The position numbers and the translations under genes were made by a program. Below are positions 5,221-57,202 of a DNA stretch of 64,000 bases, piece after piece; within the stretch, counting starts at the first letter, position 1; the number at the start of each line of letters is the position of its first letter. The stretch is taken from NCBI RefSeq assembly GCF_003692615.1, contig NZ_CP023540.1, forward strand, positions 1,054,001-1,118,000. The letters run 5' to 3'. This DNA is from Chryseobacterium sp. 6424 (lineage in GTDB: Bacteria > Bacteroidota > Bacteroidia > Flavobacteriales > Weeksellaceae). Under the pieces are notes generated by a model, which was given only the letters and a program-made list of their open reading frames with translations, made no database searches and was not told the DNA's origin.

Positions 5221-6240
5221 TTAATAGTTGATCCCGAAGTTCGGGCCGAACTTAGCCACCATCCCAAGATCCATCAAAGCGATTTTGTGATCTTTCGTAA
5301 GGTGTACATTCCCGGGATGTGGATCTGCGTGCGCGAAACCATCGATGATGATTTGTTTCATGTATGCCGCGACCAACTCGTCAACAAGCGCGTTATAATT
5401 ATGCTCTGTTCGTGAAAGCGGGGTGACGGCGGTTATTTTTCTGCCCTCCACAAAATCCATTGTCAAAATCTTTGAAGTAGAATATCCTGCCACAGGCTGT
5501 GGTACAAATATTTTTCTGTAATTGGTTAGATTTTGGCCAAGTGTCTGCAGGTTTTCTGCCTCTTTTACATAATCAAGTTCATTCAGTAGGATGAATCTTA
5601 GCTCCTCTAGTACCTGATCTGCTGCGTATTTCTTTGCTGTTTTGTTGTTTTTAACAGCAAAATCGGTAATTTCCTTTAAAGTATCAAGGTCTTCAAGGAA
5701 TTTTTTTCTGATGCCTGGTCGCTGTACTTTTACCGCAACTTGCCTGCCTGAGCGTAATACGGCACGGTGTACCTGCCCAATGGACGCACTTGCCAACGGT
5801 TGTACATCAAAGGATTGAAACGCCTTTGACATTCTCTGGCCTGTTTCTTCTTCAACAATTTTTTCCACCTCAGCGTAGGGGATTTCCTCTACGTCATCCT
5901 GTAATCTTTCCAGAGCTTTCATGTATGATTCGGGCATCAGATCTGGGCGGGTGGATAATAATTGCCCCAATTTCACATAGGTTGGCCCCATTTTTTTCAG
6001 GTCTTCCGCAAGTTCTTCAGGGTTGTCGTAGGTATGGTGTTCTGGCGCATTGTCATCTTTGGTTTCATTAAATGCGTTTTCGGCAGCTGACCGAAAGATA
6101 TCGCTGTTCCAGTATTTATAAATGAAAGATATAAATTTTGAATAATTACTTAATTTTTCAGGAATTGTCGCCATAAAGGTTTTTTTTGCTAGTTCCCTTA
6201 CAAAAAGCGTGCATTCCTTAATAGGGTTGGCAGCGTACAT
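5221..6240 (-). CDS. N-terminal catalytic part of a frameshifted ABC1/UbiB-family kinase
   Basis: A 339-codon frame of the atypical ABC1 (AarF/UbiB) kinase family, linked to isoprenoid-quinone synthesis or lipid homeostasis at the membrane. Visible motifs are the family's KxGQ segment (GPTYVKLGQLLSTRP), the Ala-type nucleotide loop ASIGQVHRA, the VAVKVQRPG lysine, and the catalytic stretch HADPHPGN followed by MDLG in place of DFG. The frame then runs FGPNFGINY and stops. One extra C near 5235 would restore the normal continuation into the downstream frame. The start is uncertain: MATIPEKL at 6174 is an alternative to 6240. It is divergent from sdaA, which starts 39 nt away. Confidence 0.8.
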   Translation of the reverse strand: MYAANPIKECTLFVRELAKKTFMATIPEKLSNYSKFISFIYKYWNSDIFRSAAENAFNETKDDNAPEHHTYDNPEELAEDLKKMGPTYVKLGQLLSTRPDLMPESYMKALERLQDDVEEIPYAEVEKIVEEETGQRMSKAFQSFDVQPLASASIGQVHRAVLRSGRQVAVKVQRPGIRKKFLEDLDTLKEITDFAVKNNKTAKKYAADQVLEELRFILLNELDYVKEAENLQTLGQNLTNYRKIFVPQPVAGYSTSKILTMDFVEGRKITAVTPLSRTEHNYNALVDELVAAYMKQIIIDGFAHADPHPGNVHLTKDHKIALMDLGMVAKFGPNFGINY

Positions 6241-51862: not shown

Positions 51863-53854
51863 ATGCATATGACCTTTCAGGATCAAATCAGACAGGGGAT
51901 TCCCGCCGAACTTCCTCAGCCAAAGCCTTACGATACATCCATTAATCACGCGCCGAAACGCAAAGAAATTCTGACCGACGAAGAGAAAAAACTCGCGCTG
52001 AAAAATGCTTTACGTTATTTCGAACCGAAATTCCATGCAGAATTATTGCCGGAATTCAGGGAAGAACTGGAAAAATATGGCAGGATTTATATGTACCGTT
52101 TCCGTCCGGATTACGAGATGAAAGCGAGAGACATTGCAGAGTATCCCGGAAAATCTGAACAGGCCAAAGCCATCATGCTGATGATTCAGAACAACCTGGA
52201 TTATGCCGTAGCACAACATCCACACGAACTGATCACGTATGGTGGAAACGGAGCCGTGTTCTCGAACTGGGCGCAATATCTTCTGACGATGAAGTATCTG
52301 TCTGAAATGACGGATGAACAGACCTTAACCATGTATTCCGGGCATCCGATGGGGTTGTTCCCCTCGCATAAAGACGCCCCGAGAGTCGTGGTGACGAACG
52401 GCATGATGATCCCGAATTATTCCAAACCCGACGACTGGGAAAAATTTAACGCGTTGGGTGTGACACAGTACGGACAGATGACCGCCGGAAGCTATATGTA
52501 CATCGGTCCGCAGGGAATTGTACACGGGACAACGATTACGGTTCTGAATGCTTTCAGAAAAATCAATAAAGAACCCAAAGGCGGGTTGTTTGTAACTTCA
52601 GGTTTGGGCGGAATGTCTGGAGCTCAGCCAAAAGCTGGAAATATCGCAGGTTGCGTTACCGTCATTGCAGAAGTGAATCCGAAGATTACAAAAATTCGTC
52701 ACGATCAAAATTGGGTCAACGAAATCCATGAAGATCTGGATGAACTGGTTGCAAGAGTGCGAAAAGCGCAGGAAAATAAAGAAGCGGTTTCGCTGGCTTA
52801 CCTCGGAAATGTGGTGAACGTCTGGGAGAAATTTGATGAAGAAAATTTAAGGATCGATATTGGTTCAGACCAGACTTCGCTTCACAATCCGTGGGCGGGC
52901 GGTTATTATCCGGTTGATGTGACCTTTGAAGAATCCAATGCGATGATGGCAGAAAACCCTGAATTATTCAAAGGAAAAGTTCAGGAAACCTTGCGAAGAC
53001 ACGCTTCAGCCATCAACAGACACACCGCGAAAGGAACCTACTTTTTCGATTACGGGAATGCTTTTTTGCTGGAAGCATCAAGAGCCGGAGCTGATGTCAT
53101 GGCAGCAAAACCGACTTTGGGGAGAGAGTTCAGATATCCTTCCTACGTGCAGGATATTATGGGACCGATGTGTTTTGATTATGGTTTCGGGCCGTTCCGT
53201 TGGGTCTGCACGAGCGGAAAACCTGAAGATTTAAAGAAAACAGACGAAATTGCCTGCCGGGTTTTGGAGGAAATTATTAAAAATTCTCCCGAGGAAATTC
53301 AGCAGCAGATGAAAGATAATATCACATGGATCAAAGGCGCTCAGGATAACAATCTGGTCGTGGGTTCGCAGGCGAGGATTCTATATGCCGATGCGGAAGG
53401 AAGAATGAAAATCGCCGAAGCCTTCAATAAAGCGATTGCCAGCGGAGAGATCGGCGCGGTGGTTTTGGGCAGAGACCATCACGATGTTTCGGGGACGGAT
53501 TCGCCGTACAGAGAGACTTCCAACATATATGACGGGTCGAGATTTACGGCAGATATGGCGATTCACAACGTAATCGGCGACAGTTTCCGTGGGGCGACCT
53601 GGGTGAGTATTCACAACGGTGGTGGCGTTGGCTGGGGCGAAGTCATCAACGGTGGTTTCGGGATGTTGCTCGATGGAAGCGCCGATGCCGACAGAAAATT
53701 AAAATCAATGCTGTTCTGGGACGTGAACAACGGCATTTCCCGTCGAAGCTGGGCAAGGAATGAGGGCGCCGTTTTCGCCATCAAGAGAGCCATGGAAGCC
53801 GAACCGAATCTGAAAGTGACGCTGCCGAATTTTGTGGATGAGAGTCTTTTTTAA
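51863..53854 (+). CDS. hutU: Urocanate hydratase
   Basis: A 663-residue cytoplasmic NAD-dependent enzyme that converts urocanate to imidazolonepropionate in histidine degradation. Visible family motifs are MYSGHPMGLFPSH, TNGMMIPNYS, GQMTAGSYMYIGPQGIVHGT, the glycine-rich GLGGMSGAQPKA, and the late FDYGFGPFRWVCTSG with the catalytic Cys region. It is longer than the usual ~560-residue enzyme, as is common in Bacteroidota. ATG 51869 is a close alternative start. No other hut gene is nearby. Arginine codons lean to AGA, unlike some neighbours, which may hint at a different history. Confidence 0.94.
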   Translation: MHMTFQDQIRQGIPAELPQPKPYDTSINHAPKRKEILTDEEKKLALKNALRYFEPKFHAELLPEFREELEKYGRIYMYRFRPDYEMKARDIAEYPGKSEQAKAIMLMIQNNLDYAVAQHPHELITYGGNGAVFSNWAQYLLTMKYLSEMTDEQTLTMYSGHPMGLFPSHKDAPRVVVTNGMMIPNYSKPDDWEKFNALGVTQYGQMTAGSYMYIGPQGIVHGTTITVLNAFRKINKEPKGGLFVTSGLGGMSGAQPKAGNIAGCVTVIAEVNPKITKIRHDQNWVNEIHEDLDELVARVRKAQENKEAVSLAYLGNVVNVWEKFDEENLRIDIGSDQTSLHNPWAGGYYPVDVTFEESNAMMAENPELFKGKVQETLRRHASAINRHTAKGTYFFDYGNAFLLEASRAGADVMAAKPTLGREFRYPSYVQDIMGPMCFDYGFGPFRWVCTSGKPEDLKKTDEIACRVLEEIIKNSPEEIQQQMKDNITWIKGAQDNNLVVGSQARILYADAEGRMKIAEAFNKAIASGEIGAVVLGRDHHDVSGTDSPYRETSNIYDGSRFTADMAIHNVIGDSFRGATWVSIHNGGGVGWGEVINGGFGMLLDGSADADRKLKSMLFWDVNNGISRRSWARNEGAVFAIKRAMEAEPNLKVTLPNFVDESLF

Positions 53855-53888
53855 TTTGAAAATGAGTTAATTTGAAAATTGGAATATC

Positions 53889-53945
53889 GGAATTCCCCTC
53901 CGGTGGAGGGGTGGCAAAAAATCTTTGATTTTTTGACGGGGTGGT
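53889..53945 (+). repeat. Left 57-nt inverted repeat of the DUF559 unit
   Basis: It contains two hairpins: CCCCTCC/GGAGGGG (loop GGT) and CAAAAAATC/GATTTTTTG (loop TTT), and ends GACGGGGTGGT. It begins 3 nt beyond the nuclease stop codon. It pairs with the right copy at 50 of 57 positions when that copy is reversed. Confidence 0.85.
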
Positions 53946-53948
53946 TTA

Positions 53949-54374
53949 CTAAGGCGCACTGTAATTCGCAATGATAAAGTCCTCCAGATCTTTCATCGCA
54001 ACCGCTAAGTTTTGCTTTACATCCCAGTCGGTGATGCGGAAAACCTTTAGACCCAGTTTTTCCATAAAAGCTGTCCGTACAGCGTCATATTCCTGCTTTG
54101 TACCGTGACTAAAACCATCGATCTCAACTACCAGTCCTAAGGTTTTTACATAAAAATCAACGATATAATTACCGATGATACGCTGCCTGTCAAAATCGAT
54201 ACGATGAAAATTGTGGTTTCGCACTTGTTGCCAGAATAATACCTCAGATAAGATTCCTGCCTTTCTTTTTTTCTTTGTTAATGGTACCAGAAGGGGATTA
54301 TAAGGAAGGTTTTCCACGAAGTTCCGATAAATGATGACGCCATTGATGTGAGTGAGTATTCGTTTTTCAGGCAT
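53949..54374 (-). CDS. DUF559 PD-(D/E)XK-type endonuclease
   Basis: A 141-residue protein with a DUF559 domain related to very-short-patch-repair endonucleases. The core is seen in NYIVDFYVKTLGLVVEIDGFSH (about residues 68-89), whose Asp and Glu are the expected catalytic acids, though the usual Lys/Gln after Glu is replaced by Asp in EID. DRQRIIG precedes it and a DWDVKQNLAVAM C-terminal segment follows. The gene fills almost the whole space between two 57-nt inverted repeats, the left one starting 3 nt after its stop. This suggests nuclease and repeats belong together. DNA target and role unknown. Confidence 0.85.
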   Translation of the reverse strand: MPEKRILTHINGVIIYRNFVENLPYNPLLVPLTKKKRKAGILSEVLFWQQVRNHNFHRIDFDRQRIIGNYIVDFYVKTLGLVVEIDGFSHGTKQEYDAVRTAFMEKLGLKVFRITDWDVKQNLAVAMKDLEDFIIANYSAP

Positions 54375-54415
54375 GCCAATTTTTAAATAAAATTAAGTTT
54401 TTTTCGAATGCAGGA

Positions 54416-54472
54416 ACCACCCCGTCAAAAATTCTCCGAATTTTCGCCACCCCTCCAGCGGAGGGGAATTCC
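54416..54472 (-). repeat. Right 57-nt inverted repeat of the DUF559 unit
   Basis: Read on the minus strand it matches the left copy. Its hairpins are CCCCTCC/GGAGGGG (loop GCT) and CGAAAATTC/GAATTTTTG (loop GGA). Substitutions relative to the left copy lie in loops or preserve pairing. Confidence 0.85.
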
Positions 54473-54561
54473 CTGGGTTCTAAAGAGAAAGTCTGGATTC
54501 AAAGGTTATTTCGCTTAAAAGTTTACAGCAAATTCCCTCAAAATATTCTCACCACATTCTC

Positions 54562-54570
54562 TATATTTGA
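54562..54570 (+). promoter_or_regulatory. -7 promoter element of the M23 peptidase gene
   Basis: TATATTTGA matches TAnnTTTG, 14 nt before the ATG at 54585. Confidence 0.5.
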
Positions 54571-54584
54571 ATTTTAGAATAAAG

Positions 54585-55265
54585 ATGAACACCTTAAAAG
54601 ATATTCTCCTAAAACAAACTGGTGTAAAAGTCATCGACGCATCCATCGATTACAAAGATTACGTTGCGTTCGACCTTTCGGCACAACACACCGATGAACT
54701 AGATTTAGACCTTACTGATGCTGAAAAATTTGAGGATTTTGTGGAAGAGTATCTTTCAAAAAATCAGGCGAAAGTGGCGTACGGCGGTTATCTCGAAAAG
54801 CGCAACCTATATAAAAGGAGTACGAACTTCAACGATGATAATTTAGAAGAACGGAACATCCACATCGGCTTGGATCTGTGGATCAAAGCCGGAACTTCTG
54901 TCTTGAGCGCGCTGGACGGAAAAATCCACAGTTTCCAGAACAACACTTTTCTCGGTGATTATGGCCCGACGATCATTTTGGAACACGAAATTGAAGGTTT
55001 TACTTTTTACACACTGTACGGACATTTAAGCCTGGAAAGTCTTACAGGAAAAAGGGAAGGGCAACCCGTAAAAAAGGGCGAGAAGATCGCCGAACTCGGT
55101 AAACCGCCGGTGAACGGTGATTATGCGCCACATCTGCATTTTCAGATTATTAAAGATATCGAAAGCAAGAAAGGCGATTATCCCGGCGTGTGCAGTTTCA
55201 GCGAAGTGGATTTTTACCGCGATAACTGTCCGGACCCGAATTTACTGCTGAAAATTAAGGAGTAA
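54585..55265 (+). CDS. M23-family zinc metallopeptidase, no signal peptide
   Basis: A 226-residue protein with an M23 (LytM/lysostaphin-type) domain, usually cleaving peptidoglycan cross-bridges. The HxxxD zinc motif is in NIHIGLDLWIKAG and the HxH motif in APHLHFQII, with a YTLYGHLSLESL strand between. An N-terminal ~90-residue part of unknown fold precedes it. It lacks a signal peptide, so it may be cytoplasmic, released by lysis, or act on something else. The ATG at 54585 was chosen because a -7 element overlaps the longer alternative start. A bidirectional terminator follows. Confidence 0.85.
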   Translation: MNTLKDILLKQTGVKVIDASIDYKDYVAFDLSAQHTDELDLDLTDAEKFEDFVEEYLSKNQAKVAYGGYLEKRNLYKRSTNFNDDNLEERNIHIGLDLWIKAGTSVLSALDGKIHSFQNNTFLGDYGPTIILEHEIEGFTFYTLYGHLSLESLTGKREGQPVKKGEKIAELGKPPVNGDYAPHLHFQIIKDIESKKGDYPGVCSFSEVDFYRDNCPDPNLLLKIKE

Positions 55266-55570: not shown

Positions 55571-56134
55571 ATGAAAAATCTTTTGAAACTGTTTGCCGTA
55601 GCGTTAATGTTCGGCTTTGTGATGATTTCCTGTGAAGAATCTCGGGATGAAATGCCGAGTTCCGGCAGTATTTATGAACTTGCTTCCCGGGATACGGACC
55701 TGTCGAATTTAAAAGCGGCTATAGATAAAGCGGGTTTGGCTACTACACTACAAAGCAGTGGTACTTTTACTGTTTTCGCGCCTTCTAATGCGGCTTTTGC
55801 TACCTTCTTGAAAGATAACGGATTCGCCAATCTTGAGGCTGTACCGGTAGCAACACTCAGAGAAATTCTGCTAAATCATGTACCGTCTTTCAAAGTGATA
55901 GCGGCAGATGTAACGACTGGATATGTTTCTATGCTTGCCAAAGGTTCGGCTTCGTCTTCCAGAAATATCAGCATGTACATCAATACCTCTTCCGGAGTGA
56001 GAATTAACGGTGTTTCTACTGTAACGGCTACCAACATTAGTGCTGACAATGGGGTAATACACAAAGTTGATAAAGTGATTGGTTTGCCGACTGTTGTTAC
56101 CCAAAAATGTAACGCAGAATGCCATAAACTTTGA
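55571..56134 (+). CDS. Fasciclin (FAS1) domain lipoprotein, probably truncated at its C-terminus
   Basis: A frame with a lipoprotein signal (MKNLLKLFAVALMFGFVMISC; ATG at 55571) and one FAS1 domain (about residues 35-170: FTVFAPSNAAF, LREILLNHV, NGVIHKVDKVIG). After IGLPTVVT the frame runs QKCNAECHKL and stops, which is not FAS1-like. Bacteroidota homologues often carry a second FAS1 domain, which is absent. The DNA right after this point, in another frame, codes for the C-terminal part of a TonB-dependent receptor, so the end is probably a deletion junction. It should be anchored in the outer membrane, with an adhesive or binding role by family. Confidence 0.75.
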   Translation: MKNLLKLFAVALMFGFVMISCEESRDEMPSSGSIYELASRDTDLSNLKAAIDKAGLATTLQSSGTFTVFAPSNAAFATFLKDNGFANLEAVPVATLREILLNHVPSFKVIAADVTTGYVSMLAKGSASSSRNISMYINTSSGVRINGVSTVTATNISADNGVIHKVDKVIGLPTVVTQKCNAECHKL

Positions 56135-57202
56135 TGATTTTACTTCGGATCTGGATTTGATTCAGTATGGTCTTTACCTTCAGTCTGCGCGTAAGTTTGC
56201 GAACGACCGTTTGCAGGTTTCAGCCGGTTTGCGTTTAGATGCCAGCAATTATTCCGATAATACAGAAAATCCGCTGGAGCAGTTTTCGCCTCGTCTTTCA
56301 CTGAGCTATAGATTTACCGATCGGTTCGCGTTTAATTTCAACACCGGTATTTATTATCAACTGCCCACTTACACTGCTTTAGGTTTTATTGAAAATGATC
56401 TCCTGATCAATAAAAACACACTGAAATACATCAGAAATACCCATATCGTTGGTGGATTTGAATATAACGGTGAAAATAACCTGCGTTTGACCGTTGAAGG
56501 ATACTACAAGAAATATAAGAACTACCCGTTTTCTCTCAGAAATCAAATTTCACTTGCTAACGTTGGTGGCGATTTTGGCGTAGTGGGCAGCGAACCTTTG
56601 GATTCACGTGGTTTTGGCGAAACCTATGGCGTAGAGTTGCTTGCCCAGAAGCGTACGGTAAACAATCTGTACGGTATCATAGCTTATACTTTCGGTTATT
56701 CTAAATTTTCTGAATCGAATGGAAATCTTCTGCCATCAAGCTGGGATTCGCGACATATCCTTACTTTAACCGGCGGTAAATATTTCAACAGAAACTGGAA
56801 TATCGGGGCACGCTTCCGTTTGCAGTCTGGTCTGCCCGAAACGCCGTATGACTTGCAACGCAGCGCTTTGGTAAACATCTGGAACATAGCCAATGGGCCG
56901 GTGTCAGATTTTAGCAGGCTCAACAGCGCCCGGGGGAATGTAGCGCACCAATTGGATTTGCGAGCTGAAAAAAATGGGTGTTCAGCAAATGGCAGCTTAC
57001 CGCGTATGTGGATGTGGTGAACGTGTATGGTTCTGCAAGTCCCAGCGCGTTGCCGGTAGTGAACCTTCAGCGCGATGCCCAGGATAATGGGGTTATTGCC
57101 AATCCCACAGCGCCATTGGCAGAACAATATTATCTGCTTGAAACCGGCGAGCAAGACCGTGCGACCACCTTGCCTTACTTCGGGCTTATTTTTGAGTTTT
57201 AG
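56091..57202 (+). pseudogene. TonB-dependent receptor remnant (C-terminal part, frameshifted)
   Basis: Reading VTQNAINFDDFTSDLDLIQYGLYL onward gives barrel strands of a TonB-dependent receptor (SAGLRLDASNYS, LSYRFTDRFAFNFNTG, GYYKKYKNYPF), and the end is the usual aromatic closing strand LPYFGLIFEF. The signal peptide, plug and N-terminal barrel are missing. Near 56968-56974, a run of seven A breaks the frame (stop at 57018-57020); eight A would join it to KWVFSKWQLTAYVDVVNVYG and the end at 57202. The 5' boundary, joined to the fasciclin gene, looks like a deletion junction. It is a pseudogene unless both the frameshift and the junction are assembly errors. Confidence 0.78.

Follow-up and report, generated by a model that had tools for sequence, protein, structure and literature searches.

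The DUF559 unit and its surroundings

The window, the whole 64,000-nt stretch of the Chryseobacterium sp. 6424 genome that was analysed, contains a 584-bp unit in which a standalone open reading frame (ORF) for a DUF559 nuclease lies between hutU and a gene for an M23 peptidase and is enclosed by a pair of inverted repeats. The components of the unit and its two host neighbours, with the evidence for each in parentheses, are as follows.

51863..53854, + strand, host neighbour gene hutU, urocanate hydratase (three Urocanase domains)
53889..53946, + strand, left 58-nt repeat, read from outside inward (repeat comparison and fold)
53895..53911, + strand, left hairpin 1, CCCCTCC-GGT-GGAGGGG (fold)
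53915..53935, + strand, left hairpin 2, palindromic, with a sequence that varies among copies (fold and multi-copy pairing)
53938..53944, + strand, left third strand, GGGGTGG, mirroring the G-rich arm of left hairpin 1 in a triplex layout (sequence; family-wide test)
53949..54374, - strand, DUF559 (PF04480) nuclease gene, 141 aa (ORF list; Pfam DUF559, E 2e-23)
54415..54472, - strand, right 58-nt repeat, inverted (repeat comparison and fold)
54417..54423, - strand, right third strand GGGGTGG (sequence)
54426..54446, - strand, right hairpin 2 (fold and multi-copy pairing)
54450..54466, - strand, right hairpin 1 (fold)
54585..55265, + strand, host neighbour gene, M23 peptidase (ORF list, domain search)

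The initial annotation had described inverted repeats bracketing one nuclease gene, and this arrangement stands, although the repeats measure 58 nt and not 57 nt as given there; the left repeat does follow closely behind the stop codon, with 2 nt between the two. The repeats are identical at 51 of 58 positions (88% complementary), and their seven differences fall at the repeat positions named previously (15, 28, 33, 36, 37, 38 and 41). From the outer to the inner end, each repeat is built of GGAATT, CCCCTCC-loop-GGAGGGG, TGG, hairpin 2, AC, GGGGTGG and TT; the third block, GGGGTGG (53938-53944 and 54417-54423), had been overlooked. One more copy of the repeat is found in the same genome (G000:C1:352296-352350). 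Nothing in Rfam matched within 53500-54900. Elsewhere in the window (56079-57202), sequence that by eye resembles an outer-membrane receptor occupies two overlapping frames and is perhaps a broken gene.

The enzyme

The families matched by the window protein are DUF559 and restriction and homing types only, with no HUH Y1 transposase among them, and PADLOC likewise returned only weak restriction or homing matches. For the AlphaFold model of the protein (pLDDT 85.5), the top Foldseek matches in the PDB were 3hrl and the homing endonuclease I-Bth0305I (3r3p); the latter was matched with E 8e-4 and a TM-score of 0.75 by target, and with E 0.029 by sequence profile. Residues E44, D73 and E84 do not vary among 15 relatives, as would be expected of a PD-(D/E)XK site. 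A DUF559 gene is placed within the EDxHD homing family in a section of PMC9403480. In an excerpt of PMC12907096, the DUF559 protein VsrA of Caulobacter is presented as resembling Vsr enzymes and as connected with cytosine methylation and SOS, and recombination hotspots of Legionella include DUF559-plus-transposase segments according to a passage of PMC12308824.

Conserved fold and triplex layout of the repeats

The predicted fold of the repeat comprises 16 stem pairs, all of which are intact in both window copies if G-T pairs are allowed, as expected from the earlier proposal that the substitutions spare the structure. Seven random substitutions retain as many pairs in 1.5% of trials (n=200,000), so the two copies of the window are, by themselves, modest evidence; the stronger evidence for conservation of the fold is provided by other copies. 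Among 109 distinct inner segments of window-type elements, the pairing score is 0.79, as opposed to 0.54 for shuffled segments and 0.61 for chimeras made of halves of different segments (102 of the 109). Pairing of at least 0.85 is reached by 65 of the 109 segments and by none of the shuffled means. The palindrome of hairpin 2 is thus kept across these 109 segments while its sequence changes.

As in BoxC/PIT/TM elements, discussed below, the repeat has three blocks, the third of which mirrors the second: GGGGTGG is GGAGGGG reversed, with T replacing A, and could act as the third strand of a purine-type intrastrand triplex. This layout was followed through 554 G-rich hairpins near DUF559 (from 120 of 140 loci), each compared with the mirror strand within 60 nt. 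The match to the hairpin's own arm is 0.64, versus 0.33 after shuffling, 0.34 upstream and 0.49 when arms are swapped between loci; a third-strand match of at least 0.75 is seen for 48% of the hairpins and 8% upstream. At least one triplex-type element is present near 22/30, 60/80 and 29/30 DUF559 loci but at 0/49 control loci, the span searched being 800 nt around DUF559 and the whole locus, about 3-4 kb, in the controls. The elements in the triplex and hairpin 2 tests are related, and the p-values overstate. With this reservation, the earlier suggestion of selection on the fold is borne out by pairing across many copies.

Hairpin 2 is often common to the copies around one nuclease and different between nucleases, and several loci of the genus carry two hairpin 2 types on opposite strands. 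Similar nucleases have a similar hairpin 2 only where the proteins are more than 80% identical (nine pairs). A deep co-evolution of nuclease and hairpin 2 was considered and dropped, because over 29 loci the correlation is weak (Mantel r 0.14, p 0.03), and it disappears where identity is below 60%.

Repeats and nucleases in the genus

Among 60 genomes (own included), DUF559 was detected in 23 and repeat matches in 15 (E 0.001). All 16 window-type small DUF559 genes (L041-L052 and L057-L060, that of the window included) have a two-hairpin element in the locus of ~3.3 kb. The 14 remaining DUF559 loci of the genus lack the two-hairpin form, and nine of them carry other palindromic repeats, for example, CCCTCTCC-NNN-GGAGAGGG. 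By hand scoring, 13 of 37 genomes of the genus and family bear a window-type nuclease, those with the short-element type only being counted as without. On this count, copies of the exact head motif are present in 13/13 nuclease-bearing and 14/24 other genomes (Fisher p 0.007), and 44 of the 77 copies in the 13 bearers lie no more than 2 kb from the nuclease; the reversed motif, used as a control, has no match in any of the 60 genomes. The search of the genome and its relatives that the initial annotation had called for thus finds the repeats placed non-randomly relative to DUF559. At six loci (L045, L047 and L057-L060), one short element (TCCGAAGGA, or TCCGTAGGA in L045) is located upstream of DUF559 at a near-constant distance; by its look it is vertically kept, and perhaps it is regulatory.

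Breadth of the association

Repeats flank DUF559 genes well beyond the genus. In a comparison of 700 nt on each side with 30 dinucleotide shuffles, inverted or direct repeats surrounded DUF559 at 25/30 loci of the genus, 55/73 loci from named genomes (80 loci, of which seven were too short), 25/30 of the phylum and 24/30 of the Alphaproteobacteria, as against 1/30 control loci, which are LeuRS loci, three of them (L061, L079 and L084) with an insert of their own farther in the gene. A random placement of the repeats relative to DUF559, which would have contradicted the earlier reading, was therefore not obtained. Two places occur twice in these sets (L171/L172 are L044/L048, in G020 and G000), and L048/L172 is the window's own gene. 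The alphaproteobacterial loci were drawn from the class of a Reyranella genome, in which 51 of 142 genomes have DUF559, and were not picked by their repeats; the plain triplex form is seen among them (L283, L289), as is the two-hairpin form (L252, L272, L282, L293). At the level of sequence, the unit and its repeats can be regarded as established, and so can the association of these with DUF559.

No flanking repeats were detected at 5/30 genus, 18/73 named, 5/30 phylum and 6/30 alphaproteobacterial loci. Thirteen of the 18 failing named loci are embedded in genes, including all six in RecG and three of the four in RecB-like genes, and their edges, where displayed, resemble translated repeats by eye. 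The named loci are mostly from Bacteroidota, with others from Chloroflexi, Phycisphaeraceae, Alphaproteobacteria, one cyanobacterium and one Leptospiraceae record. Inspection by eye of 40 hand-chosen loci revealed palindromic flanks in examples from the first five of these groups and none in the Leptospiraceae record. At five loci (L171, L186, L190, L195 and L198), DUF559 lies between long direct repeats (local score about 200-570 within the 700-nt flanks), an arrangement that looks like the duplication of entire repeat clusters.

The hairpin with CCCCTCC or CCCTCTCC also co-occurs with the nuclease. Among 394 of the 395 phylum genomes (own genome left out), at least one copy is present in 107/163 genomes with DUF559 and 56/231 without (OR 6.0, p 2e-16, a value that overstates because the genomes are related), and at least ten copies in 30/163 and 3/231, respectively; in one family of 86 genomes, the motif is present in 5/8 genomes with DUF559 and 16/78 without. 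Three or more copies are carried by 21 of the 231 DUF559-negative genomes (maximum 32), which means that copies last or appear where no nuclease is detectable. Individual genomes stand out for their many copies, namely G332, with 149 copies of the CCCTCTCC hairpin, and G143 (32 copies) and G219 (19), neither of which has a DUF559 match.

Occupied and empty sites

Units are present and absent at the same sites, the comparison that had been proposed earlier. The junction of hutU and the M23 peptidase gene is free of the unit in all six relatives where it was found; it holds a fused palindrome in G010 and a degenerate one in G032. The fused palindrome was rejected as a general scar, being found in only 2 of 60 genomes (own included), of which one, G010, has it at the site orthologous to that of the window. 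Three relatives (L218, L220 and L221) have a different repeat-like sequence, GGGCAG...CCGCCCTCCGTTCCCGCTTTTTTG..., in this junction, upstream of the M23 peptidase gene. A DUF559 unit is likewise located at the 3' end of hutU in G387, which belongs to another genus, and there (L173) a 41-nt piece of the hutU 3' end is partly duplicated across the unit (1343-1383 and 2036-2077).

The second site is within the gene for LeuRS: in one loop, an in-frame DUF559 is present in 5 of 32 genes of the genus and missing from the other 27. Three of the inserts have TCCTCACCCCAACCCTCTCC-type ends and two have CCCCCTTT-type ends (one degenerate). Repeats are present on both sides of DUF559 in four of the five genes, and none was seen in the displayed loop of the 27 insert-free genes. 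The two insert types share 47-51% identity, whereas their hosts share 82-86%. The LeuRS tree has four changes of insert label (gains or losses), with G009 among insert-free relatives; one origin per insert type would be compatible with the group table of the tree, which omits insert-free rows. No target-site duplication was obvious by eye at the LeuRS sites of G009 and G026 or at the hutU site.

Across all loci, a stop-to-stop frame of more than 230 aa surrounds DUF559 at 46 of 140, which by itself is no proof of fusion. Of these large ORFs, 36 were scanned for host domains, with 26 over the curated cut-off, seven below it and three unnamed. The hosts over the cut-off are LeuRS (8), RecG (6), IleRS (3), UvrA, MetH and HsdR (2 each), and ValRS, PheT and HMG-CoA lyase (1 each); those below are RecB-like (4), PglX-like (2) and alpha-xylosidase-like (1). 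LeuRS is entered at two sites, near profile positions 237-239 and 476-483, and L133 holds two DUF559 stretches; the six RecG inserts share one site, as do the three IleRS inserts. An ancient insertion followed by descent could be an alternative explanation of such shared sites.

DUF559 and triplex motifs in Escherichia coli

BoxC/PIT/TM triplex motifs, as described in the main text of PMC4666352, number 23 in E. coli K-12 and occur in >260 bacterial genomes; they form inverted A/B pairs, and instability or higher variability is reported around TM sites in E. coli. Their describers found no mobility activity near the motifs, and the words nuclease, ycjD and Bacteroid are absent from that main text. 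The DUF559 gene of E. coli K-12 is ycjD (1351407-1351760), and TM_ECO no. 9 (1351239-1351204) is located between fabI and ycjD, 168 bp from the latter.

A 236-nt query over the spot of TM_ECO no. 9 is matched in 5349 of 5426 E. coli genomes, in a median of 14 places, and a query for the ycjD locus is covered to at least 80% at one place in 3330 of the 5426. As the former is widespread while many strains are without ycjD at the locus, the repeat outlives the gene. The ycjD locus was rejected as a clean empty site because the three non-carriers inspected (L244, L245 and L247) hold efflux genes there (TetR, RND or MFS parts, on the fabI or sapF side), which makes it a replacement. At the ycjD locus of E. 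coli K-12 (L201), 39 nt from the 3' end of ycjD have a duplicate (5321-5359 and 5427-5465, 90%) in the intergenic stretch next to TM_ECO no. 9.

Proposed mechanism and alternatives

The reading that we favour, and hold to be somewhat probable, is that the 584-bp stretch is a small mobile nuclease unit, an analogue of REP/RAYT systems, which probably moves by cutting and repair. Its DUF559 gene would lie between inverted repeats that, as single strands, can form a hairpin plus a mirrored third strand in a triplex layout, and the variable hairpin 2 of the window repeat would replace the second loop of the triplex. Related units with family-specific repeats would have entered intergenic sites and, in frame, the interiors of housekeeping genes, and solo repeats would be dispersed products or relics. 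The nuclease, presumably active and a relative of EDxHD/Vsr-type enzymes, may cut target DNA or the folded repeat, its likely substrate. Host recombination or repair might then copy the unit or the repeat, as in homing and REP/RAYT systems. On sequence grounds, movement of the unit or the repeats by the nuclease appears to be the best reading.

The most serious alternative is that a free-standing gene for a homing endonuclease settled next to repeats that act as hotspots of recombination, with the repeats spreading by other means and the units moving by homologous recombination between repeats. We regard it as unlikely. The same host sites are hit recurrently, as by inteins; arrays and long direct repeats surround some DUF559 genes; variability is higher around E. 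coli TM sites (PMC4666352, main text); and motif copies are present in DUF559-negative genomes, all of which it would explain. However, repeats border both sides of four of the five LeuRS inserts of the genus, with none seen in the 27 empty loops, and distinct DUF559 groups have distinct repeats.

It is less likely still that DUF559 is a Vsr-like repair or guard nuclease, with the folded repeats as its regulatory or substrate sites maintained by the host. The VsrA report from Caulobacter (PMC12907096, in excerpt) is consistent with such a role, as is the short element found upstream at near-constant distance at six loci of the genus, like a regulatory site, but in-frame inserts in unrelated housekeeping genes, patchy presence and group-specific repeats better fit a selfish element.

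Transcription terminators, or hairpins that stabilise the mRNA of the nuclease gene, are an improbable explanation of the repeats. Stable hairpins are indeed predicted at both ends of the gene, but some copies are far from it and others are inside host reading frames; moreover, the third strand mirrors the G-rich arm, and purine-motif triplexes reportedly do not form in RNA (PMC4666352, main text). Chance or an assembly artefact can practically be dismissed, since the same layout recurs in genomes of several phyla, although random substitution keeps the fold of the window pair at a frequency of 0.015.

Returning to the mobile nuclease unit, a wider proposal is plausible, if a little doubtful: DUF559 units may be a widespread, undescribed class of mobile elements whose nuclease recognises triplex or hairpin ends, inserts in frame in essential proteins and is the missing enzyme of the BoxC/PIT/TM repeats known since the 1990s. 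The repeats, linked to instability and present in E. coli K-12 and >260 genomes, would then have a named candidate enzyme, whose gene adjoins one K-12 copy. Should this hold, RAYT is one of two unrelated enzymes with which palindromic repeat systems arose, and the unusual DUF559-containing tRNA synthetases and helicases would be in-frame insertions of a mobile unit.

Comparison with known systems

REP/RAYT systems (REPtrons) and IS200/IS605 elements share with the unit a small enzyme gene set between palindromic repeats, further copies of which occur alone or as opposed pairs at other places, and the analogy of layout drawn in the initial annotation is confirmed by the flanking repeats and the dispersed solo copies. 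Unlike those systems, which use an HUH Y1 transposase, the window unit has a putative PD-(D/E)XK-type DUF559 enzyme, and the GTAG tag at the repeat end, a defining trait of REPs in a section of PMC3733652, is absent from the window sequence. The same paper describes CGTC-tagged REPs, which are said to lack a dedicated transposase. A link to these, suspected from the CCCCGTC edge that they have in common with the repeats studied here and from the missing transposase, was dropped because they consist of a single 8-9 bp stem with a CCA tail, whereas the window repeat has two hairpins.

The predicted fold of the protein and the recurrent insertion sites in conserved genes resemble those of EDxHD homing endonucleases (I-Bth0305I, 3r3p), but the window gene is outside any intron or intein, the unit has folded ends of its own, and the embedded DUF559 copies remain part of the host reading frame. 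With MITEs and Rickettsia palindromic elements, some of which are within genes, the unit shares the form of short inverted-repeat DNA and, as a MITE-type trait, terminal inverted repeats; it differs from them in carrying the nuclease gene itself, and no target duplication was seen by eye.

The closest likeness is to BoxC/PIT/TM repeats. Both have a C-rich strand, a loop, a G-rich strand, a second loop and a G/T-rich third strand; both are dispersed in intergenic copies, with two types in inverted pairs and a wide distribution, and near-TM sequences lie beside DUF559 at L283 and L289. The TM_ECO consensus, CCCTCNCCCN3-6GGGNGAGGGN3GGGNGAGGG, has a short second loop (PMC4666352, main text). The sequence at L283 nearly conforms to it; the window repeat (CCCCTCC/GGAGGGG) does not, its arms being shorter and its 26-nt middle containing a variable hairpin. 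A candidate enzyme is named here for the DUF559 repeats, whereas the main text of PMC4666352 ties none to TM. The earlier statement that no system of this form is described therefore has to be divided: the repeat itself has a partial precedent, since the plain form that it takes at other loci corresponds to BoxC/PIT/TM triplex repeats, whereas the open-access full texts searched, of which 15 name DUF559 or PF04480, included no paper that apparently links DUF559 with these repeats. Within the reach of these searches, the repeats belong to a class already described in part, and their connection with a nuclease and the insertions in frame are new.
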